A DNA stretch of 50,970 nucleotides from Bacteroidota bacterium (GTDB lineage Bacteria; Bacteroidota; Bacteroidia; JAFLBG01): NCBI GenBank assembly GCA_017303975.1, contig JAFLBG010000024.1:1-50970 (forward strand), read 5' to 3'. Below, piece after piece: positions 7,103 through 31,244 of the stretch (position 1 is its first letter; each line of letters opens with the position of its first letter). Made by a program: the position numbers and the translations under genes. Below the pieces are notes generated by a model, which saw nothing but the letters and a program-made list of their open reading frames with translations, was not told the origin of the DNA and did no database searches.

Positions 7103-7915
7103 ATGACAAAGCAAGAATTAAAAAATAGTATCATTCAAAAAAAATCTTGCCTTTGTATAGGCTTAGATACCGATATTACAAAAATTCCCAAACACTTACT
7201 TTCTTCATCTGACCCAGTTTTCGAATTCAACAAACAACTAATTGATGCAACAAACGATGTTTGTGTTGCCTATAAACTAAACACCGCATTTTACGAAAGC
7301 CTTGGCTCTGTGGGTTGGGAAGCTTTAGAAAAAACAGCACATTACCTAAAAGAATTTAAAAACATATTTACCATTGCCGATGCCAAACGCGGAGACATTG
7401 GAAATACATCAACTATGTATGCACAAGCATTCTTCGGGCTTATGAATTTTGATGCGGTAACTGTAGCACCTTACATGGGCTCTGACTCCGTTACACCATT
7501 TCTACAATACGAAGGCAAGTGGGTAATTCTACTTGCACTTACATCTAACAAAGGAGCGGATGATTTTCAATTAACTAAAAATGTAAGTAATGCATTCATA
7601 TATCAACAAGTTTTAGAGGTTTCACAAAAATGGGGAAATGCAGAAAACATGATGTATGTAGTGGGTGCTACCCGTCCGGAGATGCTCGAAGAAATAAGAA
7701 AACAAATCCCGAATCATTTTCTTTTAGTGCCCGGAGTGGGTGCTCAAGGTGGAGATATAAAGGAAGTGTTTAAGTACGGAAAAAATGAAGATATCGGATT
7801 ACTAATCAATTCCTCTCGCGGAATTATTTACGCTAGCAACAAAGAAGATTTTGCAGTAAAAGCTAGAGAAGAAGCCATAAAATTAAATAATGAATTGACC
7901 ATTCAACTGCGTTAA
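7103..7915 (+). CDS. pyrF: Orotidine-5'-phosphate decarboxylase (type 2)
   Basis: The 270-residue enzyme catalyses the last step of UMP synthesis, decarboxylating OMP. The catalytic signature [10 protein letters not shown] is at residues 93-102 (Asp93, Lys95, Asp98). The phosphate-binding end of the barrel is seen in [12 protein letters not shown] and [12 protein letters not shown]. The length and motif context fit the longer type 2 form typical of Bacteroidota, Actinobacteria and Myxobacteria rather than the roughly 235-residue type 1. It sits between prfA and the DUF2851 gene with short gaps, so it is probably co-transcribed. Confidence 0.96.
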
Positions 7916-7926
7916 TTTATATACCA

Positions 7927-9207
7927 ATGATTTCAGAAGATCTACTTCATCACATCTGGAAATTCAGACTTTTTGAGCAAAAAAACATTACTACATCAAA
8001 AAATATTTCCCTCGAAATTCTAAAAACAGGAGAACACAATAAAAATTCAGGACCGGATTTTTTTAACGCACGCATAAAAATAAATAATACCGAATGGGCT
8101 GGCAATGTGGAGATTCACGTCAACTCTTCTGACTGGCTAAAACACAAGCATCAAAATGACAATGCATATAAAAACGTTATCCTGCATGTAGTTTACAACC
8201 ATGATGCAGAAATTAAACAAAATGGAGAAACGCTTCCAACACTTGAATTAAAGAATATTGTATTCCCTTATATACTTAGCAACTACACAAAACTTGTACA
8301 AAGTAAACACACCATCCCTTGCGAAAAACAAGTAAAAGGTGTAGGCGAATTCACTATTTCGTCTTGGCTAGAAAGGCTTGCTATTGAACGTCTTGAAAGA
8401 AAAAGTAGCGAAATAACACAATCATTACAATTAACCACCAATAATTGGATCGCTGTATTCTATAAATTTCTTTTTAAAAGTTGGGGATTTAAAACCAATG
8501 CAGAGCCCATGTTGCAATTAGCCAATAGCTTCGATTGGACGATTCTAGAAAAAATAAATGGAAATAAACTAGCTGTAGAATCGCTACTATTTGGGCAAGC
8601 AGGATTTTTAAACGCAGAATTTAAGGACGATTACCCAAAACAACTGAAAACCGAGTACACGCACTTAAAACACAAATATAGCCTCACTACACTGGATGCT
8701 TCTATTTGGAAGTTCTCGAAAATACGCCCTGTAGGGTTTCCAACCATACGAATAGCACAATTAGCAAGCCTGGTATCGGAAAATAAAAATCTACTCTCCT
8801 CTTTCCTAGAAATTAGTAATTACAATGGCGCAGAAAAATTATTTCAAATAAGTATAAGTGATTATTGGAAAAATCATTTTCAATTTGATAGTCCATCAGT
8901 AAGCAAACAATCTGTAAACATTGGCAAAAAAGCAATAGAATCAATTATCATCAATACCATAACGCCAATTCAGTTTACTTATGGAAAACTAAGAGATTCG
9001 GAAAAGCATTGTACTAGTGCATTAATGCTTCTAGAACAAATAGATGCAGAGAGTAATTCTATAATTGAGTATTGGGAAACGATAGGCATAAAAGCAAAAA
9101 ATGCAATGGAAAGCCAAGCCCTTTTAGAGTTAAAAAACAACTATTGCAACCCTAAAAAATGCTTGCAATGTGCAATAGGTGATTCTTTGCTAAAAACGGA
9201 CTTATGA
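7927..9207 (+). CDS. DUF2851 family protein
   Basis: The 426-residue protein belongs to the Bacteroidota DUF2851 family, recognised by the N-terminal segment ISEDLLHHIWKF, TGEHNKNSGPDFFNARIKI and WAGNVEIHVNSSDW. The conserved GPDF, EIH and HVVY elements have suggested a nuclease-like fold, but the function is unknown. The C-terminus carries CNPKKCLQCAIG, a possible metal site. From residue 384 the coding sequence is repeated almost exactly at 16943-17064. This copy ends in KTDL after the duplicated part, while the downstream copy ends in KNK. The present tail was therefore probably created by the insertion event that placed 9.2-16.9 kb here. Confidence 0.9.
   Translation: MISEDLLHHIWKFRLFEQKNITTSKNISLEILKTGEHNKNSGPDFFNARIKINNTEWAGNVEIHVNSSDWLKHKHQNDNAYKNVILHVVYNHDAEIKQNGETLPTLELKNIVFPYILSNYTKLVQSKHTIPCEKQVKGVGEFTISSWLERLAIERLERKSSEITQSLQLTTNNWIAVFYKFLFKSWGFKTNAEPMLQLANSFDWTILEKINGNKLAVESLLFGQAGFLNAEFKDDYPKQLKTEYTHLKHKYSLTTLDASIWKFSKIRPVGFPTIRIAQLASLVSENKNLLSSFLEISNYNGAEKLFQISISDYWKNHFQFDSPSVSKQSVNIGKKAIESIIINTITPIQFTYGKLRDSEKHCTSALMLLEQIDAESNSIIEYWETIGIKAKNAMESQALLELKNNYCNPKKCLQCAIGDSLLKTDL
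9075..9196 (+). repeat. Direct repeat copy 1: 3' end of the DUF2851 gene
   Basis: This 122-bp segment inside the DUF2851 coding region matches 16943-17064 at 120 of 122 positions with no gaps. The two differences are GGC/AGC in the fourth codon of the repeat and TTA/TTG in a Leu codon. It ends in CTAAAAA, after which the two copies diverge completely. Confidence 0.97.
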
Positions 9208-9302
9208 AAAACAAGTCTAAAATTTTCACAGAAAGAATCTTAATCTATATAAAGTGAATACTTTCTTTTTCATATATATTGATTTTGTTTGGTAAAAACA
9301 AG

Positions 9303-12300
9303 CTACCGAACTAGCACAACCTTTTGGCTGGTTGATGATTTAGCACTTTGTAGCTTAATTGAATATACACCACAAGGAAGAAATAACTCTCCTATATCCA
9401 GTTCATATTTCTCTTGAGTTGAACTCCCAACAAAGTGTTTTTTTCCCATTGCATCCACTATACTTATTTCATAGCCATTAGAAAAATATTCATCATTTAC
9501 CAGAATCATTATTTGGTCATTAGCAGGGTTAGGAAATATATTAATAGATTCATTTTTAAGCATAACAGCAACCAAATTGGAATAACTGTATTCCCCATCA
9601 AAATCAATTTGTTTGAGACGGTAATAAGAAACACCCTGAAATGGAAAGGAATCGACAATAGAATAATTAATTTTTGTATAACTATTTCCCTTTGCGTTAA
9701 TCCACAGTATAGGTTCAAATTTTTTCGCATCTTGCGATCGCTCCACAACAAAATATTCGTTGTTTACCTCAGATGCCGTTTCCCACCAAACGTTTACGTG
9801 TGTATTATTTTCAGGTTCAGCATTAAAAGAAACTAGTTGTATTGGAAGCGGAATACCTGATGCATATTTGCCAACAAAACTATTTGTTGTTGTCGCGCCT
9901 GTTAAGCAAGCTGAATGTGCTAATGAGCCTGCTGTAGGGTCAAAATCTACATTTTCGGAATAAAAAGATCCGGTAACGTATAAATCTCCAATAGCATCTA
10001 CCTCTATATCAACACCGCTTCCCCCTCCTCCAGTAGGTATAAACCCCCATTGATGAAAAAAAGTATTGGTAGGGATTAGGTTTTTTTTGTACACCGCCAC
10101 AAAAGCCTGCCCTGCGGAAGTGGGTGAAACACTATTGGTATTAGTTGATGGGTCTAAGTCAACAGGGGTGTCATCAATACTACCCACTACATATAAATCG
10201 TCATCAAAAATCACTAACCCAACAGCCCTTTCTTGTGAGCCAAACGTACAATCACTAGTGCTAGATAAGGTAAATGCCCATTGAAAAAAAGAGGTGCTAC
10301 TAGGGTTTAGGCTTATGTCGTACTTTGCAACAAGAATATCAGTAAAGCCACATAGACCCGGAAAAGTATTAACATTGCTAGAGGGATCAATATCTGTGCC
10401 TTCTCCTGCCATTCCTGCAATAAATAAATTAGTACCATCTAACACTGCATCATAAACAGAGGTTGGAAAATTAGACATTTGCAAATCGCCTAAACACCAC
10501 CCCCATTGAAAAAAGGAGGTATTGCTTGGGGTGGTTGTACCATCGTATTTAATCATGGTCATCCCCCTGCCGGTTATCGTATAGGTATTGGCGGATGGAT
10601 CGATATCAACAATAGAGCTTTCGCTCACCTTATTACTGGTAAGAATAATATCAGTACCACTAATATTAAGAGTTGATATGGACTGGGTATTATCCAAATC
10701 GGTATTAAAGCCCCACTTAAAAAAAGAAGTGCTCGAGGGAGCAAAGTTTAAATCGTACTTTGCCATAAATAAATAGAAGGTGCTTGTTGCTGTTATTACG
10801 CTATTGGTGTTGGTGGATGGATCTAAATCTAATGATGATGTAGATCTTGTGGCGCCTGTTAAATATAAATCGGTCCCGTTAATTGTTATGTTACCCTGTT
10901 CTTCTCTTTCCGGATTACCAATATTAAACGCCCATTTGTAAAAAGAGGTGTTGGTGGGATCTAAGCTACCATCGTATTTAGCTACAAAAATATCGTCATT
11001 GCCAGCTCCGGTAATGTTATTGGTATTGCTAGAAGGATCAAAATCTATGGCGCTTGTACCATTTATGGTACCAATAATATAAACTGTGGTTCCGCTAACT
11101 TTTATAGTTTTTATATTGTCGGCACCGCTACCCCCTAATGAAAATGCCCAAACGAGGGCGCCAGAGCTGTTATATTTTACTATGTAGGCATCTGAATTGC
11201 CATTAGATGATAAATAAGATGTTGAGCCGGAGGGATCAAAATCCACATTACTTCCTGTAAAAGTCCCCGCTGCATATACATTCCCTGAACCATCTACTAC
11301 AATGGAGCTTCCGGCATCACTACCACCTGTTGCACCTATAGCAAAGGCATTACTGTATGCTCCGGCTGTGCTGTATTTTCCAATAAAGCAGTCGGTTGTT
11401 CCTGATGGAGAGCCTAAATTAGCTGTACTTCCGCTAGGGTCCATATCCACTGTAGTACTTAAAATATTACCACCAATGTATACATGCGTAGAAGCCAATG
11501 CTGCAGTATATGCAACATCATTAGCTGTACCGCCAATAGGGAATGCCCACTGGTAAAAAGAGGTATTGGAGGAAGCTAAGCTGCCATCGTATTTGGCATA
11601 AAAGCCTTCGTTAGAACCAAGCCCTGTTATGTTATTTGTATTGGTAGATGGGTCCATGTCTATAGCGGTAGTACCATTAATGAGCCCAGCTAAATAGATA
11701 TCGGTTCCGTTTAAAAATAAATCGTATCCGATATCGCCTCCGGTAGAACCTGCTCTAAAAGCCCACTGATAGAAAGAGGTATTGGAGGGAGTTAAACTAC
11801 CATCGTATTTAGCAACAAAAATATCGGTACTACCCGCACCTGTAATAGAGTTGGTGTTGGTGGATGGATCCATATCTATAGCTGTGGTGCCATTAATGGC
11901 ACCAGTAAGATAGATGTTGTCTCCGTTGTTGGTTATTTTATAAGCTACATCGGCAGTGGTGCCCCCAACCCTAAAAGCCCAAACAAAAAAAGAAGTGTTA
12001 GATGGGGTTAGGCTTGCATCGTATTTGGCCACCACAATATCACTAGCAGCGCCATTTGCACCAAGGGTAAATGTGTTTACAGACGGATCCATGTCGGAAG
12101 CAAACGAGGACGAAAGCTGCCCAGCCATATAAATATGATTGGATTGGATGGTTATACTATACACAATATCACTAGTGGTTGATCGTCCATACAAAAAAGC
12201 CCATGTATAGAACGAAGTGCTGGATGGGCTGAAATTACCATCGTATTTGGCTATAAAGCCATCGTTGTTGTTACCCGAACCTGTTATATTGTTAGTATTT

Positions 12301-12947
12301 GTAGAGGGATCCATATCTATCGCTGTTGATCCATAAACGCTTCCACAAAAATAGATGTCGGTTCCGGAAACAAGTACTTGGTAGGCTGCATCGGCTCCTG
12401 TGCCTCCTATTGCGAAGGCCCATTGGTAAAAGGAAGTACTAGAAGGCGTAAGGCTAGCGGTGTATTTTGCTACAAAGGCATCAGTAGATCCGGCACCGGT
12501 TAAAGTATTTGTATTCGAGGAGGGATCCATGTCTATGGCACTGGTACCATTAATAACACCGGTTAGATACACATAGTCTCCGGCAACCGCTACTCCATAA
12601 CTTGCATCGGCCGAAGTGCCTCCAATAGAAAAAGCCCAAACAAAGCTTCCTGAGCTGTTGTATTTAGCTAAGAAAACATCGCTATTTACAGATCCCCCTA
12701 CGGAAGCTAAATTGTACGTACTTCCGCTAGGATCAAAATCTACAGCTAGTCCTTGAAAGGAACCGGTAACATATACGTTGCCCGAACCATCTACTGCCAT
12801 AGAGCGCACTTCGTCTGCGCCATTGTCTAAACCAATATTATTTACCCAATCGGGTGCAATGCTTGGTTGAGCTGCGGATGGAAGAGAAACAAAGAGTAAA
12901 CAAACTTGTATTAGTATAGTCGTAAATTTTTTATTTTGCATATACAT
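9303..12947 (-). CDS. Large T9SS-sorted SBBP-type beta-propeller repeat protein
   Basis: The protein has 1214 residues and a signal peptide (TTILIQVCLLFVSLPSAAQ); ATG 12941 is an equally possible start. The body carries 14 repeats with the core DxDPSxNTNxITG (for example IDMDPSTNTN; first VDFDPSGSTYNL, last VDFDPTAGS). These alternate with FVAKYD and SFYQWAFxIGGTGAD segments, the layout of SBBP/beta-propeller families. Acidic DxDPS loops could bind calcium; that is inference. Near the C-terminus, LPIQLVSFNAEPENN starts an Ig/fibronectin-like domain that leads into the sorting domain (INIFPNPANDQ to the end). It is a predicted cell-surface or released structural or adhesive protein. It lies inside the block bounded by the DUF2851 repeats and is convergent with DUF2851. 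Confidence 0.9.
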   Translation of the reverse strand: MYMQNKKFTTILIQVCLLFVSLPSAAQPSIAPDWVNNIGLDNGADEVRSMAVDGSGNVYVTGSFQGLAVDFDPSGSTYNLASVGGSVNSDVFLAKYNSSGSFVWAFSIGGTSADASYGVAVAGDYVYLTGVINGTSAIDMDPSSNTNTLTGAGSTDAFVAKYTASLTPSSTSFYQWAFAIGGTGADAAYQVLVSGTDIYFCGSVYGSTAIDMDPSTNTNNITGSGNNNDGFIAKYDGNFSPSSTSFYTWAFLYGRSTTSDIVYSITIQSNHIYMAGQLSSSFASDMDPSVNTFTLGANGAASDIVVAKYDASLTPSNTSFFVWAFRVGGTTADVAYKITNNGDNIYLTGAINGTTAIDMDPSTNTNSITGAGSTDIFVAKYDGSLTPSNTSFYQWAFRAGSTGGDIGYDLFLNGTDIYLAGLINGTTAIDMDPSTNTNNITGLGSNEGFYAKYDGSLASSNTSFYQWAFPIGGTANDVAYTAALASTHVYIGGNILSTTVDMDPSGSTANLGSPSGTTDCFIGKYSTAGAYSNAFAIGATGGSDAGSSIVVDGSGNVYAAGTFTGSNVDFDPSGSTSYLSSNGNSDAYIVKYNSSGALVWAFSLGGSGADNIKTIKVSGTTVYIIGTINGTSAIDFDPSSNTNNITGAGNDDIFVAKYDGSLDPTNTSFYKWAFNIGNPEREEQGNITINGTDLYLTGATRSTSSLDLDPSTNTNSVITATSTFYLFMAKYDLNFAPSSTSFFKWGFNTDLDNTQSISTLNISGTDIILTSNKVSESSIVDIDPSANTYTITGRGMTMIKYDGTTTPSNTSFFQWGWCLGDLQMSNFPTSVYDAVLDGTNLFIAGMAGEGTDIDPSSNVNTFPGLCGFTDILVAKYDISLNPSSTSFFQWAFTLSSTSDCTFGSQERAVGLVIFDDDLYVVGSIDDTPVDLDPSTNTNSVSPTSAGQAFVAVYKKNLIPTNTFFHQWGFIPTGGGGSGVDIEVDAIGDLYVTGSFYSENVDFDPTAGSLAHSACLTGATTTNSFVGKYASGIPLPIQLVSFNAEPENNTHVNVWWETASEVNNEYFVVERSQDAKKFEPILWINAKGNSYTKINYSIVDSFPFQGVSYYRLKQIDFDGEYSYSNLVAVMLKNESINIFPNPANDQIMILVNDEYFSNGYEISIVDAMGKKHFVGSSTQEKYELDIGELFLPCGVYSIKLQSAKSSTSQKVVLVR

Positions 12948-13029
12948 TTCATATTAATTGTCCAATTTTTTTTTGTTATAAACAATAATAACTAGCAACT
13001 TCAAAACCATATACATTGCTAACATTCGC

Positions 13030-14412
13030 CTAATCTATCTTACAAAACCATTTTATAGCTAATTCGCTGCTTGATCCGTTAATATGTAGGTAGTATAAGC
13101 CAGCCGGTAGTTGTTCAATGTTTATTTTATTATTCTCGGGAGAAATTTTGTTGGAACAAAGAACTGTTGCGCCATAGATGTTTTTTATCTCTACTGTTAT
13201 TTCCCCTTCAGGTAGATTATCAATTGTTATTTCGTTAGATGCAGGATTGGGATATACAAATAAATTCGATTTTTTTGAATTGTAATTTTGAACCGAATTA
13301 AAGCTACCTCTCTCAATTTTTCTGATTCGAGCGCCCGCTCTATCATTGCTTATAACATATACACTTCCATCGGGAGCAACAGCTACATCTCGAATTCGTT
13401 TCATACCACTGCCAATAAAATAATGATTTTTAAATACTACTGAATCCCCAGCAGAATTTAATCTATAGGCAATTACACCACCAATTGCTCCCCCAAAACT
13501 TAGTACAGACTCTAAAATGCAGTTGTTAAACTCTGGGATAGTCGTATCCGAATACCAATCAATTCCAGAGGGAGGGTGCATTCCCGCATCAATGGGAAAT
13601 TCTATTGACCAAGCGTTGCATGCAGAACCCCAAATAGTGTACCCGTCTGATGCCGGCCATCCATAGTATTTACCGGGGATTAATAAGTTTAACTCGTCTG
13701 AGTTAGCGCCAAGCTCTGAAACATAAATACTTCCAGAGGGTAATTGTATTATTCCTTGGGCGTTTCTGTGTCCGATGGTATATAGATAATTATTCATAGT
13801 AGGATTATCGGTAGGAATTGTGCCATCGAAATTCATCCGCAATACTTTTCCATTGTAATAATTATTCGAAGTATCCCACGTACATACATAATCATTAGTC
13901 GTGATAAGTAATTTTCTATCTAATGTGGTAACTAGTCTGCCACCAGAGTGTTCGCCCTGATGAAAGTATCTGATTAACTCTTGCTCATTAAAAAGAACAT
14001 CCATTGCAGAATCATACACATACTTGAACACCCTAATTTGAGTTCCTGTTGCGTAGTAATAAGCAGTATCCCATGCAATGAAAACTTCAGGGGTATCCTT
14101 AAAGTTTGGGTGAAACGTTAACCCTAAATAATTGCCACTTCCTTTATTAAAAACGGTATCTACCTTTTGAGTAGAAAAATTATAGGCAAGTATATAACTT
14201 CTGTTTGTAAACCAAAGCCGGTTATCTCCTCCCCATGCTATATCCCAGGGCACGTCACATTTGCTACTATCTACAATTGTTGTAATGTTTACATATGTAC
14301 TATCAAGTAGATAATTGTTTATTTGGGCTTTTGTATTAGATAGTAAAACACAAAATATAAAATAGATACAAATTACAAGGGGCTTCAAAATACGATGGCT
14401 TTTATTTTTCAT
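13030..14412 (-). CDS. T9SS-sorted PQQ-dependent sugar dehydrogenase-like protein
   Basis: The protein has 460 residues with a signal peptide (LVICIYFIFCVLLSNTKAQ). The beta-propeller resembles soluble aldose sugar dehydrogenases (GSDH family): VPWDIAWGGDNRLWFT, LGLTFHPNF, HQGEHSGGRLVTT (the likely catalytic-His region), YTIGHRNAQGIIQLPSG, YYGWPASDG and IRDVAVAPDGSVYVISND. Family members oxidise sugars with PQQ, but PQQ use is not shown here and no pqq genes are in the window. From about residue 378 (LFVYPNPASNE) a T9SS sorting domain follows. It is upstream of the 1214-residue repeat protein on the same strand with an 82-nt gap, so the two may be co-expressed. Both belong to the inserted block. 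Confidence 0.85.
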   Translation of the reverse strand: MKNKSHRILKPLVICIYFIFCVLLSNTKAQINNYLLDSTYVNITTIVDSSKCDVPWDIAWGGDNRLWFTNRSYILAYNFSTQKVDTVFNKGSGNYLGLTFHPNFKDTPEVFIAWDTAYYYATGTQIRVFKYVYDSAMDVLFNEQELIRYFHQGEHSGGRLVTTLDRKLLITTNDYVCTWDTSNNYYNGKVLRMNFDGTIPTDNPTMNNYLYTIGHRNAQGIIQLPSGSIYVSELGANSDELNLLIPGKYYGWPASDGYTIWGSACNAWSIEFPIDAGMHPPSGIDWYSDTTIPEFNNCILESVLSFGGAIGGVIAYRLNSAGDSVVFKNHYFIGSGMKRIRDVAVAPDGSVYVISNDRAGARIRKIERGSFNSVQNYNSKKSNLFVYPNPASNEITIDNLPEGEITVEIKNIYGATVLCSNKISPENNKINIEQLPAGLYYLHINGSSSELAIKWFCKID

Positions 14413-14433
14413 TTGGTTTTGAATTAGTTGTTA

Positions 14434-14623
14434 TTAGCGTAAAACTGTAAGATAGCCCTTTTCTATTTTACTTTCATTAGTTAAAACATCATTTACTCCC
14501 TCCATATAGTAAGTGACATTGCTATCGAACCTAGCTCCGGGCAAGTTTGCCAGACTTGAAACACTCTTACTTAGCAATGAGGTTTTTCAATGAAAACAGT
14601 TTAGATTCAAATTTATTTACCAT
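14434..14623 (-). pseudogene. Possible small ORF broken by a 4-bp tandem duplication
   Basis: On the minus strand ATG 14623 reads MVNKFESKLFSLKNLIAK and then meets a stop. At that point the sequence has TAAG twice in tandem (about 14561-14568). Removing one TAAG joins it in frame to SVSSLANLPGARFDSNVTYY and onward to KGYLTVLR and a stop at 14434, giving 61 residues. The frame also stays open upstream of the ATG for about 30 codons. I do not recognise the product. This 14413-14848 stretch otherwise shows nothing convincing. A plus-strand frame of 69 codons overlaps it and is probably chance. Confidence 0.28.
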
Positions 14624-14848
14624 TTGTGAAATTGGGAACAATATTTTTTTGCCATTTCCATTGCTCCTTTTTGACAAAGCCCAACTACCAAACTGTGAAA
14701 AGATCAATGTGGTGGTTAATAGAAAACACTATGTAATATTTGAAAGGCTCGCATAGAATTATAAAAAATAAAATGTTGTACTTTGATGAAAACTTTAGGT
14801 AATAAAACAAATAGTGGCTAACAATTCTAATTATATCTCTTGGCAAAT

Positions 14849-15208
14849 TTAGCAGTTTACAGCAGCGCTTATACATAAAATCGCTTGAATAGAACCACAT
14901 CCATTTAACACTGATTCACAATAAAAATTTCTACTATTACCACATAATAAATCAGATGCTCTTTCTCCAACAGTCCAAGCATCGTTTGCTTCTACCAAAT
15001 TAGCTACTGCGCATGAGGCTCCTAGTCCAGGTGTCGCTGGTTGTGCAGTTGGCACCGCAGTAAGTGTTCCAACAAGTGCACTTGCATACTGAGCAACCAT
15101 TGGTTTCGCCTCCCCTCCGTTTATCGTCTCTCTTTCATTTGCTTTTAAACTAGTTACAAAACTTTCCACTTTAATTTCGCCTAGGCTTAGCTTTTTAGTT
15201 GTTTTCAT
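14849..15208 (-). CDS. Small GG-leader peptide, candidate RiPP (pinensin-like lanthipeptide) precursor
   Basis: The peptide has 119 residues from ATG 15208. The upstream in-frame ATG at 15265 lies beyond the promoter and is rejected. The leader MKTTKKLSLGEIKVESFVTS ... TINGG has the KKLSL start, an SFVTSL motif and a double Gly at 31-32. From memory this resembles leaders of Bacteroidota class I lanthipeptide precursors of the pinensin type. The remaining 87 residues hold six Cys (66, 89, 97, 104, 112 and the last residue 119) among many Ser/Thr, which suits thioether rings or disulfides. No dehydratase, cyclase, protease or exporter gene is nearby, so modification would depend on enzymes encoded elsewhere. 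The length is long for a lanthipeptide; a secreted Cys-rich peptide is the alternative. Confidence 0.65.
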   Translation of the reverse strand: MKTTKKLSLGEIKVESFVTSLKANERETINGGEAKPMVAQYASALVGTLTAVPTAQPATPGLGASCAVANLVEANDAWTVGERASDLLCGNSRNFYCESVLNGCGSIQAILCISAAVNC

Positions 15209-15237
15209 GTTTTTTGTTTTTATTGCTAGTGATGATT

Positions 15238-15269
15238 CAAAATTACTACATCCAATACCTCCCAACCAA
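15238..15269 (-). promoter_or_regulatory. Promoter of the candidate RiPP precursor
   Basis: Read on the minus strand, TAATTTTG at 15245-15238 matches TAnnTTTG. TTG triplets lie 17 nt (15265-15263) and 21 nt (15269-15267) upstream. The start codon at 15208 would follow a leader of roughly 20-25 nt. Confidence 0.5.
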
Positions 15270-15361
15270 CTAAAAAAGAACTTAAATGGTTTAAATAATT
15301 AAAATTAAAAATATTAAAGGTATATTTAAAAGGTGTTTTATTTAAAAATACATGAACTCAT

Positions 15362-16831
15362 ATGAATTCACTATTTCAATTAAAAAACAATAGTAAGCGA
15401 CTTACAGCCTACCAAGAAAAGAGTCTATTAAGCCAACTAAAGAATTCGCCCAAGCAAAAAGTATTATTTAACCTGCTAAAGGCAGAACAACTGCCCAATA
15501 CCAATGCAGCAATTAAAAAAATATACGAACAGGAACTGTTAACCACTTCTTTTAAGGTGGCACAAAATAGATTCTATAAACTTAAACAGTTGCTCAACGA
15601 GCAACTTGTGTTAATTCAAAAAGCCGACACCACTGAGCAACAGCATGGACTGCTCAACAGGCATGAGTTGCTGTACTATACCTGCCGCAAATTATATACC
15701 GAAGGCAACTACCTATTGGCACTTGAGCAACTTACAGCCCTAGAGCAAGAGTTGATTAAGGCCGAAATTTTCGAATTACTTTATTTAACACAAGACTTGC
15801 AACACCGATGCTTGCAACATTTGGGAAAATTCGAGGCTTGTAAGGTAAAGGTAAAAGCACAAGAACAATCGTTTGCAAAATACGCTTGCATTTACAATGC
15901 TGCTGTGGACGATTCTAAGGCAAAGCTGAATATGCCATATGGCAATACACGCAGATGGGACAATGTGGTAATAAAAAGAAAAAAAGCAGCAGAACAGTTT
16001 AAAGAGAGCAAGCGCCTTAAACTAATACATTTATATAGTAAGCTGGAATTATACAATTACAAAAACAGTATACAGCCCGGCTTTATAAATACTTCGTGGA
16101 GTATTCATAAAATAGATGCGTTGTTAAATAAGAATAATTTGCTATGCATGAATGATTTTGGCTTAGATTATCTAGCCAATAGAGATCGAGATGTTTTCCT
16201 TCAGAAAATTATGAATCACTCTAATTTTCCCAATTTACAAGTGGAATACGATGATGATATGATAAAGCGTTTTGCAGGGCAAGCACTTGAGTTTAATTAT
16301 TTGCAGTGGCTAATTCGTTTTTTTATGAAAATGGAAGACTGGAAAAATTGTTTTTTTATACTTGAGGAGGCTCGAAACTTTGGCATAAAAAACAATTCAC
16401 ACTCTGCAAAGCTCATTACTCAATTTAGAATAATAGAAGTAAATTTAGAGGCTTTTCCTAGTTATCTTCCTCCTGACAAGGCTCAATTAAAAAAGAGTAT
16501 AGAGGAAGTAATAGCAAATATAAACTCAAAAACAATTGGTTGGGAGGTGGTTGTAGGTAATAAAGAATATTTATTATTCATGATTGTACTAAATTATTTA
16601 ATTTGTTCAGAAAAGAAAGAAGCGATAAAACTTATAGCAGGAATTAAAATAAAGAACAAACTATTGGCTTCCATGGAAATAGCAATACATACCTTTCAAA
16701 AGCTAATAAAGGGTACACTTACGAAAGCTAAAGCCATTGAACAGTTAGAAAAATTTTCGGAAGCTCTCCCATTAAATCAAAAAAGTAAAAAACTAGACGC
16801 CATTATTAGAATTGTAAAGGCACGCTTCTAG
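15362..16831 (+). CDS. Hypothetical helical (TPR-like) protein, 489 aa
   Basis: I do not recognise this protein. It has no signal peptide, no membrane segment and no cysteine motif, so it should be cytoplasmic. It is Lys/Leu/Gln-rich and appears almost wholly alpha-helical, with repeated helix pairs (LTAYQEKSLLSQLKNS, NRFYKLKQLLNEQLVLIQK, EGNYLLALEQLTALEQELIK, MEDWKNCFFILEEARNFG) that suggest a TPR-like scaffold. The start at 15362 is the only good choice: ATG 15352 is in another frame and soon stops. It is divergent from the GG-leader peptide across 153 nt and is the last gene of the inserted block. A regulatory or adaptor role for the peptide is possible but rests only on position. Confidence 0.75.
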   Translation: MNSLFQLKNNSKRLTAYQEKSLLSQLKNSPKQKVLFNLLKAEQLPNTNAAIKKIYEQELLTTSFKVAQNRFYKLKQLLNEQLVLIQKADTTEQQHGLLNRHELLYYTCRKLYTEGNYLLALEQLTALEQELIKAEIFELLYLTQDLQHRCLQHLGKFEACKVKVKAQEQSFAKYACIYNAAVDDSKAKLNMPYGNTRRWDNVVIKRKKAAEQFKESKRLKLIHLYSKLELYNYKNSIQPGFINTSWSIHKIDALLNKNNLLCMNDFGLDYLANRDRDVFLQKIMNHSNFPNLQVEYDDDMIKRFAGQALEFNYLQWLIRFFMKMEDWKNCFFILEEARNFGIKNNSHSAKLITQFRIIEVNLEAFPSYLPPDKAQLKKSIEEVIANINSKTIGWEVVVGNKEYLLFMIVLNYLICSEKKEAIKLIAGIKIKNKLLASMEIAIHTFQKLIKGTLTKAKAIEQLEKFSEALPLNQKSKKLDAIIRIVKARF

Positions 16832-16942
16832 GAATTTGCTATATAAGATTCATTTTAGCCAAATGCAGAAGGAACAATATATATAAGTGGTTTAAAGAAT
16901 ACCAGTAGTTATATACTGTTAATTTCTGAGATATGGAAGAGA

Positions 16943-17072
16943 GGAAACGATAAGCATAAAAGCAAAAAATGCAATGGAAAGCCAAGCCCTTTTAGAGTTG
17001 AAAAACAACTATTGCAACCCTAAAAAATGCTTGCAATGTGCAATAGGTGATTCTTTGCTAAAAAATAAGTAA
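16943..17072 (+). pseudogene. Direct repeat copy 2: detached 3' end of DUF2851 gene with its stop codon
   Basis: Positions 16943-17064 repeat 9075-9196 at 120/122 identity. The reading frame is preserved (ETISIKAKNAMESQALLELK onward to CNPKKCLQCAIG) and continues to a stop at 17070-17072, giving the tail LLKNK instead of LLKTDL. There is no start codon or upstream body, so it cannot make a protein. It lies 9 nt before the PspC-domain gene, so this is probably the original DUF2851 3' end, pushed away from its gene by the insert. Confidence 0.95.
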
Positions 17073-17081
17073 ATTTAACCA

Positions 17082-17324
17082 ATGATAACATCTGTAATTA
17101 CAAGAATACGTAGTTGGTTCGAATCCCAAGCATTTGGAGTTTGCGATTGGTGGGGAAAAAAGCTTGGCATAAAAGCTACCAATATCCGTATGTACTTTGT
17201 TTACCTGTCATTTTTCACATTTGGATCGCCTATCATTATTTATTTTATTATGGCTTTCATGCTAGAGCATAAAGATTATTTTAAACCTCAAAAGAGTCGT
17301 AAGCCAAGCATTTGGGACTATTAG
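17082..17324 (+). CDS. PspC-domain small membrane protein
   Basis: The protein has 80 residues. GVCDWWGKKLGIKATNIRMY is followed by one or two hydrophobic segments (FVYLSFFTFGSPIIIYFIMAFML) and a basic tail (KPQKSRKPSIWDY), which matches the PspC domain. In enterobacteria PspC is an inner-membrane partner in the phage-shock envelope-stress response. Stand-alone PspC proteins in Bacteroidota are poorly characterised. It begins 9 nt after the detached DUF2851 3' end, so before the insertion it was probably the next gene in the prfA-pyrF-DUF2851 operon and may now lack that promoter. Confidence 0.85.
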   Translation: MITSVITRIRSWFESQAFGVCDWWGKKLGIKATNIRMYFVYLSFFTFGSPIIIYFIMAFMLEHKDYFKPQKSRKPSIWDY

Positions 17325-27759: not shown

Positions 27760-28390
27760 CTAACTAGCCAACAATTCCTTCTTGGTTTTCTCTAATATAT
27801 CAAGGGCATCTTCTTTTTTGTTCGATTCTGCGTAAGTACGTAATACCGGCTCTGTAACAGATGCACGAATCATCAACCAATCGTTCTCGTTGAAAAAACA
27901 CTTCCATCCATCAATTGTCTCCACTCGCTTAACAGCATAATTACCAAAGGAAGTATAGGTATTATTCTTACAATTATTAACAATTCTATTTTTCAACGCT
28001 TCATCCAAATACAAGTCGTAGCGCTCAAAAGCAAAGGTTCCTGTTATTTGGCAAACCTCTTCAATCAATTGCATTAAGCTCTTTCCGGGTTTTGCCATAT
28101 ATTCCCACACCACTAGCGCAATCCAAATTCCATCACGCTCCGGAATATGACCTTTTATTGCTATTCCACCGGACTCTTCTCCACCTAACAACACATCGTC
28201 TTCAATCATAATACCGGCAACATACTTAAAACCGATTTTCACTACTTGATATTCCAAGCCAAAATGCTCACACATTCTTTTCACACGGGGTGTAACAGAG
28301 AAAGCGTTTACCACTTTGCCTTTTATGTGTTTTCTTCTAATAAATATTTAATAAGCAATAATATAATGTAGTGAGCCTCGCCAAAATAGA
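27760..28390 (-). pseudogene. Decayed duplicate of the phosphohexomutase 3' end
   Basis: The frame VNAFSVTPRVKRMCEHFGLE to the C-terminus matches residues 290-472 of the intact enzyme at 29826-31244, about 85% identical by eye. Homology continues upstream in another frame (YFGEAHYIILLLIKYLLEE, to about 28390), so one base is lost near 28330. The catalytic domains with TASHNP and DGDADR are absent. In the phosphate-binding loop SGTEP has become SVTEP. The gene's first two-thirds are missing, so activity is very unlikely, although 184 codons remain open from an internal ATG at 28314. Confidence 0.88.
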
Positions 28391-29825: not shown

Positions 29826-31244
29826 CTAACTCGCCAATAATTGTTTTTTGGTTTTCTCTAAAATATCCAAAGCCTTTTCTTTGGTAAATGATTCTGCATA
29901 CGTTCGTAAAACAGGCTCGGTACCCGAAGCTCTAATCATAAGCCATTCGTGTTCATTAAAAAAATATTTCCACCCATCAATTGTCTCTACACGTTTAACA
30001 GCATAGTCTCCAAACGTTTTATAGGTATTGTTGGTGCAATTACTCACAATTTTATTTTTTAAGGCTTCGTCCAAATGCAAATCATAACGCTCAAAAGCAA
30101 ACGAATCGGTTATTTTATATACATCTTCAATAAGCTGCTCCAACGTTTTTCCCGATTTAGCCATGTATTCCCATATTACCAAACCAATCCAAATTCCATC
30201 ACGCTCCGGAATATGACCTTTTATTGCTATTCCACCGGATTCTTCACCACCCAACAACACATCGTCTTCAATCATAATACCGGCAACATATTTAAAGCCA
30301 ATTTTTACTACTTGGTATTCCAAACCAAAATGCTCGCACATTTTTTTAACACGGGGGGTAACCGAAAAAGCATTAACTACTTTGCCTTTCATATGTTTTG
30401 CCTCCACTAAATATTTTATAAGCAATAAAATAATATGGTGCGAATCAACAAAATTTCCTTTGTTGTCATACAAACCAATTCTATCGGCATCTCCATCGGT
30501 AGCTAAACCGCAAGCAATATTTCCATTTGATTTTATCAAATTAGAAAACTCTTGCAAATTTTTATGAATAGGCTCCGGTGCTGTATTGTTGAATTGCGGA
30601 TTGTGTTCACAGTGCAATTTTACTACTTCAGGAAATAAGCGCTTCATTACATTTTGTCCTGCTCCATACATAGCATCGTAAGCAAATTGCAATCCACTCT
30701 TCTTTATAGCTTGCAAATCAAAATTCTTCTCTATATGCGCGCAATACATGGTTTCTAAATCAACATATTCTAGCTGTTTTGTCGAAACAGCAGTATCTAA
30801 TGCAATTCCAGCATAATCAATCTGACATTCGGAAGGCATTATCTCTTCTATTTCTGCAACTTTTTCCGGCACCAATGGTCCACCGTACGAACCTTTCAGC
30901 TTAAAACCATTATATTCTGGCGGATTGTGGCTAGCTGTAATTATTATTCCAACAGAAGTTTCTATTTTTACAGCACCTAACGATATCATTGGTGTTGAAA
31001 CAATTCCTTTTGAAAGGTAAACTTTCACATTGTATGCAACCATTACCTTGGAAACCGTTTCTGCAAAAAGCTCTCCTGCAAATCGGCAATCATGCCCAAT
31101 CACAACTGATGGATTTTTATAGTTCTTCAACAGCCACTTAGCAGTAGCCTCTGCCACACGTGCTACATTATCAACGGTAAAGTCTTTTCCAATGATGGCT
31201 CTCCAACCATCGGTTCCAAATTTTATAGTTACTCTTGAATTCAT
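29826..31244 (-). CDS. Phosphoglucomutase/phosphomannomutase (alpha-D-phosphohexomutase)
   Basis: The protein has 472 residues. All four site motifs are present: the phosphoserine loop TASHNP (Ser105), the Mg-binding DGDADR (250-255), the sugar-binding GGEESGG (332-338) and the phosphate-binding RASGTEP (438-444). The enzyme interconverts hexose 1- and 6-phosphates for glycogen, cell-wall and surface sugar synthesis; glucose versus mannose preference cannot be read from sequence. A TATATTTG element (31274-31267, minus strand) could be a -7 box, but no well-spaced TTG precedes it. Downstream, a protease gene and then a decayed copy of this gene's 3' end follow. Confidence 0.94.
   Translation of the reverse strand: MNSRVTIKFGTDGWRAIIGKDFTVDNVARVAEATAKWLLKNYKNPSVVIGHDCRFAGELFAETVSKVMVAYNVKVYLSKGIVSTPMISLGAVKIETSVGIIITASHNPPEYNGFKLKGSYGGPLVPEKVAEIEEIMPSECQIDYAGIALDTAVSTKQLEYVDLETMYCAHIEKNFDLQAIKKSGLQFAYDAMYGAGQNVMKRLFPEVVKLHCEHNPQFNNTAPEPIHKNLQEFSNLIKSNGNIACGLATDGDADRIGLYDNKGNFVDSHHIILLLIKYLVEAKHMKGKVVNAFSVTPRVKKMCEHFGLEYQVVKIGFKYVAGIMIEDDVLLGGEESGGIAIKGHIPERDGIWIGLVIWEYMAKSGKTLEQLIEDVYKITDSFAFERYDLHLDEALKNKIVSNCTNNTYKTFGDYAVKRVETIDGWKYFFNEHEWLMIRASGTEPVLRTYAESFTKEKALDILEKTKKQLLAS

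Follow-up and report, generated by a model that had tools for sequence, protein, structure and literature searches.

A duplicated gene end at both borders of a gene block

The locus described here raises the question of how a block of unrelated genes came to lie between two copies of the 3' end of one conserved gene, and whether a mobile element is needed to account for it. The window, which is the whole stretch of 50,970 nucleotides that was analysed, belongs to a Bacteroidota bacterium (assembly GCA_017303975.1, contig JAFLBG010000024.1). The conserved gene, the repeat copies and the neighbouring gene are as follows:

7927 to 9207, plus strand: intact DUF2851 gene, 426 aa (Pfam PF11013, E 4.2e-142)
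9075 to 9196, plus strand: upstream repeat copy, the DUF2851 3' end, encoding the conserved YCxxKxCLxCxIG motif
9197 to 16942, no strand assigned: inserted block of 7,746 bp, absent from the DUF2851 loci of 45 relatives
16943 to 17064, plus strand: downstream repeat copy, a bodiless DUF2851 3' end with a conserved Gly replaced by Ser
17082 to 17324, plus strand: PspC-domain gene, 80 aa (Pfam PF04024, E 2.1e-7), the usual direct downstream neighbour of DUF2851

A repeat search of the window re-found the direct repeat reported in the first-pass annotation, 122 nt that match at 120 positions (98%) without gaps. The copies start 7,868 bp apart and 7,746 bp separate them, in line with the insert of about 7.7 kb described earlier, and their two mismatches fall at 9085 (G/A) and 9132 (A/G). 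BLAST against 0.5 Mb sampled from the genome gave E = 4e-55 for the pair, which is therefore not a chance match, and no third copy is present in the whole assembly. Both edges of the repeat are sharp, since homology is no longer seen in the 120 bp past either edge (shuffle p 0.68 and 0.41).

The upstream copy had been placed inside an intact gene, and the full-length DUF2851 product and its Pfam match bear this out. The most conserved motif of the DUF2851 protein falls within the repeat, while the final codons of the present gene (TDL and the stop) lie beyond it and are supplied by the inserted side. The downstream copy had been read as a bodiless 3' end that keeps the frame and stops 9 nt before the PspC gene; the frame and the stop stand (the product ends in LLKNK, with the stop codon at 17071-17073), but the gap to the PspC start at 17082 is 8 nt. 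At position 9085 the upstream copy encodes the Gly that almost every relative has, whereas the downstream copy encodes Ser; loss of this residue is what a relic would be expected to show.

The block is a derived insertion

The locus was compared with 45 DUF2851 neighbourhoods from the Bacteroidia, all of them relatives at class level only, with DUF2851 proteins about 34-50% identical; the best relative in a scan of GTDB r220 was 48% identical. PspC lies downstream of DUF2851 in 29 of the 45 loci, the two genes overlapping or lying within about 100 nt of each other in 24, where some overlaps reflect imprecise start calls, and 240-610 nt apart in the other 5. On these gene orders, DUF2851-PspC adjacency is a widespread arrangement in the class. 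Neither the block nor a second DUF2851 3' end occurs in any of the 45 loci, a few of which have weak SBBP matches in other settings. The adjacency, together with the absence of block and second 3' end from the relatives, makes the downstream copy look original and the block derived. Because these relatives are class-level and include no close empty site, a history of a single event is inferred from distant synteny.

The 7.7-kb block is thus a real, derived insertion with duplication of the target end, a kind of anatomy that is already known. The earlier proposal of an insertion with the DUF2851 3' end at each of its borders is backed by the widespread adjacency in the class, by the lack of the block in all 45 loci and by the native appearance of the downstream copy; the situation named as speaking against it, relatives that all carry the block with both repeats, was found in none of the 45. 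As is characteristic of elements at gene 3' ends, the target 3' end is present at both borders and the gene is regenerated. Of the marks of a Campbell insertion, a direct repeat is present at both borders, and the uninterrupted DUF2851-PspC order is seen in class-level relatives only.

Cargo of the block

The block carries four genes:

9303 to 12947, minus strand: SBBP beta-propeller protein, 1,214 aa, with a T9SS sorting tail (Pfam PF06739, PF18962)
13030 to 14412, minus strand: glucose/sorbosone (PQQ) dehydrogenase-like protein, 460 aa, with a T9SS tail (Pfam PF07995, PF18962)
14849 to 15208, minus strand: pinensin-leader (GG-type) peptide precursor, 119 aa (NF038180, E 4.1e-12)
15362 to 16831, plus strand: 489-aa protein with no assigned family and no match in Pfam, NCBIfam or PHROGs

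Three of the four have counterparts on contig C4 of the same genome. A BLAST search of the block against its own genome found paralogues there of the SBBP, dehydrogenase and pinensin-leader peptide genes at 69-76% DNA identity (68%, 62% and 71% amino acid identity, respectively), and the SBBP-dehydrogenase pair is ordered as in the block. The C4 set was rejected as a recent donor, its DNA identity of about 70% comparing with 98% between the repeat copies; the set would predate the repeat, provided that gene conversion has not kept the repeat copies alike. Within the genome, which is 99.8% complete, these paralogues are the nearest sequences to the block, and no near-identical donor is present. 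Foreign composition was likewise rejected, as the tetranucleotide distance of the insert, at the 82nd percentile of genome windows, does not make it an outlier. A plasmid search with the dehydrogenase gave distant matches only, below 60% identity.

The 489-aa protein, which is probably helical, has distant paralogues beside other pinensin-leader peptides in the same genome and no close copy. A family of 480-500 aa proteins occurs near pinensin-leader genes at three places (window 15362-16831, L097:2322-3773 and L108:14720-16213) and is possibly a partner or regulator of these peptides. The genome holds 12 scattered pinensin-leader peptide genes, for example at 15113-15196 of the window, L095:6645-7001 and L097:7686-8015, and a single match to a lanthipeptide dehydratase (LanB-type, PF04738), on contig C23.

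No agent of insertion is recognised in the block

Searches with Pfam, NCBIfam and PHROGs found no integrase, transposase, excisionase, phage or other mobile gene among the ORFs of the block, and none of these libraries places an integrase near a border. No tRNA was found in the block and no Rfam RNA at the site, and a comparison of its inner ends gave no inverted match of significance (p 0.05). The first reading of the locus, that no integrase, transposase or terminal inverted repeat is visible, was thus confirmed by profile searches and a test for inverted matches. The block does not look like a transposon, either IS or composite, as it has neither a transposase domain nor significant terminal inverted repeats; transposons usually duplicate 2-14 bp of their target, and 122 bp is far larger. 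The 489-aa protein was considered as a hidden recombinase; it matches no family in the three libraries and its single-sequence AlphaFold model (pLDDT 38.5) is unusable, results that speak neither for nor against the idea. Comparison of the block DNA with phages gave no match. No plasmid match for the 122-bp segment and no viral contig carrying the DUF2851 end were found in the collections searched, absence from which proves little.

Across the genome there are 14 matches to the tyrosine recombinase family (PF00589), 12 of them above the Pfam cut-off and none in the window. Contig C40 (5817-20559) has three tyrosine-recombinase pairs in a row, two of which score identically and lie 7.3 kb apart; these look like repeated elements.

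Comparable repeats elsewhere in the genome

Direct repeats with a length of 80 bp or more, an identity of 90% or more and a spacing above 1.5 kb were sought in 1.26 Mb of this genome, and three places beyond the window came to light, on contigs C7, C8 and C2. The C7 repeat (452 bp, 97.6% identity; 1031-1478 and 7109-7560 of the stretch C7:20001-40000, L111) spans the upstream region and first codons of a gene for a 630-aa T9SS protein. From one copy the gene runs on intact, from the other it breaks off after about six codons, and the roughly 5.6 kb between the copies hold small ORFs without assigned function, among which no recombinase was recognised. This case is partly comparable to the window as its mirror image, with the edge at a gene's 5' end instead of its 3' end, although its surroundings are T9SS genes and it may have a different origin. 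Its repeat is unrelated to that of the window in sequence, of another length and placed at a gene's 5' end, so that a single fixed attachment sequence is less likely. On C8 (18228-22302), a tandem duplication comprises the 3' end of a ribonucleotide-reductase-like gene and a PIN-like gene (names that are readings of the sequences, not library matches), with copies about 91-93% identical and a bodiless 3' end left behind. C2 has a 573-bp repeat pair at 91%.

No such repeat pairs occur in 633 kb around the DUF2851 genes of relatives, which is a conserved neighbourhood and no fair random control. Within the window, two minus-strand ORFs (27760-28314 and 29826-31244) share a 300-bp direct repeat of 76% identity that starts at their 3' ends (27760-28059 and 29826-30125).

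A proposed insertion without a dedicated recombinase

With middling confidence, we favour a duplicative insertion in which incoming DNA was joined by general or illegitimate recombination and no dedicated recombinase acted. Some 7.75 kb of DNA, whose source was probably a related bacterium, would have entered at the DUF2851 end, between DUF2851 and PspC, and the joining would have copied the last 122 bp of DUF2851. The body of the gene would have retained one copy and acquired a new tail, and the original 3' end would have remained on the PspC side, where it may now be a decaying relic. Two sub-routes could lead there, either a single RecA-type crossover with circular or concatenated DNA bearing a DUF2851 end, or an illegitimate join by template switching or break repair, with a step back of 122 bp on return to the chromosome. 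They leave the same trace here and cannot be told apart. Against the crossover stands its requirement for a donor with a nearly identical DUF2851 end, as none was found. A search of the genome for Ku was also negative, so that an illegitimate route through Ku-type end joining loses weight. Campbell integration of a circle, offered as one possibility in the first-pass annotation, is not established, integrase-type or illegitimate insertion leaving the same anatomy. The 98% identity is no proof of a recent event, since gene conversion could keep the repeats alike.

We infer both the outside origin of the block DNA and the recombinase-free route. The latter is favoured because no integrase was found in the block, the site is not reused in relatives and the C7 repeat is unrelated, that is, on absent evidence and one partly comparable case. 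That the lineage repeatedly acquires foreign or shuffled gene blocks without a recombinase, copying 100-450 bp of a gene edge and leaving the neighbours unbroken, is unlikely on present data.

Alternative explanations

The alternative that survives best, tentative as it is, is a site-specific element, a remnant of one or a trans-mobilised block, with an attP that carries the DUF2851 3' end and an integrase that has been lost or lies elsewhere; the upstream copy would then be attL and the downstream copy attR. Many attB sites cover conserved motifs, as does the repeat, which spans the most conserved one in DUF2851. In its anatomy the locus matches e14 at icd (PMC6379469), and any of the 12 above-cut-off tyrosine-recombinase matches in the genome could act in trans. 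However, the block itself has no integrase, excisionase or other mobile gene, its cargo families are ordinary for this genome, the 3'-end duplication recurs in none of the 45 relatives and no viral contig has the DUF2851 end. The recombinase-free insertion is accordingly preferred to such a disarmed element.

It is improbable that the block was copied within the genome, by template switching or ectopic duplication, from a donor that was later lost or diverged. C4 offers the SBBP-dehydrogenase pair in matching order and a homologous peptide gene, but the divergence of this set far exceeds that of the repeat and the 489-aa gene has no close copy. A tandem duplication that began inside DUF2851 and was followed by deletions in one copy has a precedent in the C8 event, which left a bodiless 3' end in the same genome; it is likewise improbable here, as only 122 bp are repeated and the downstream copy keeps its native spacing to PspC, so that this route must assume a precise deletion. 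An assembly artefact, such as an extrachromosomal circle mis-joined to the chromosome, is very improbable even in a draft of 70 contigs. The longest exact run common to the copies (64 bp) is shorter than the apparent assembly k of 127, suggested by the ends of contigs C3 and C6, one pair that overlaps by exactly 127 bp. Each copy would thus be bridged along with its flanking sequence, and a mis-join at the repeat is unlikely.

Comparison with known systems

The locus is a clean example of accessory genes, here for secreted proteins and a peptide natural-product precursor, added between conserved neighbours with none broken and no mobile element in sight. If this is a recurrent process, at which the C7 case hints, it would point to a general route of gene gain that is missed by searches for mobile elements.

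The closest likeness is to e14, a prophage at the icd 3' end in Escherichia coli K-12, where a 163-bp relic (icd') lies beyond the element (PMC6379469). In both loci the target gene is whole but has exchanged its 3' end, a bodiless relic lies opposite and cargo sits between, but e14 is a prophage that uses site-specific recombination, whereas the block has no recombinase or phage gene, and the copies in the window disagree at 2 of 122 bases. Insertion of incoming DNA without a transposase or integrase is known from homology-facilitated illegitimate integration (PMC3240628). Campbell-type integration also leaves a direct repeat, through a single crossover, although for the window no donor was found. 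In Streptococcus pneumoniae, transformation drives the formation of merodiploids, in which about 100-900 kb lying between pre-existing repeats are duplicated in tandem (PMC3784515). These resemble the window in being bounded by direct repeats and in keeping an intact gene copy, whereas the window has unrelated cargo between two copies of one gene end.
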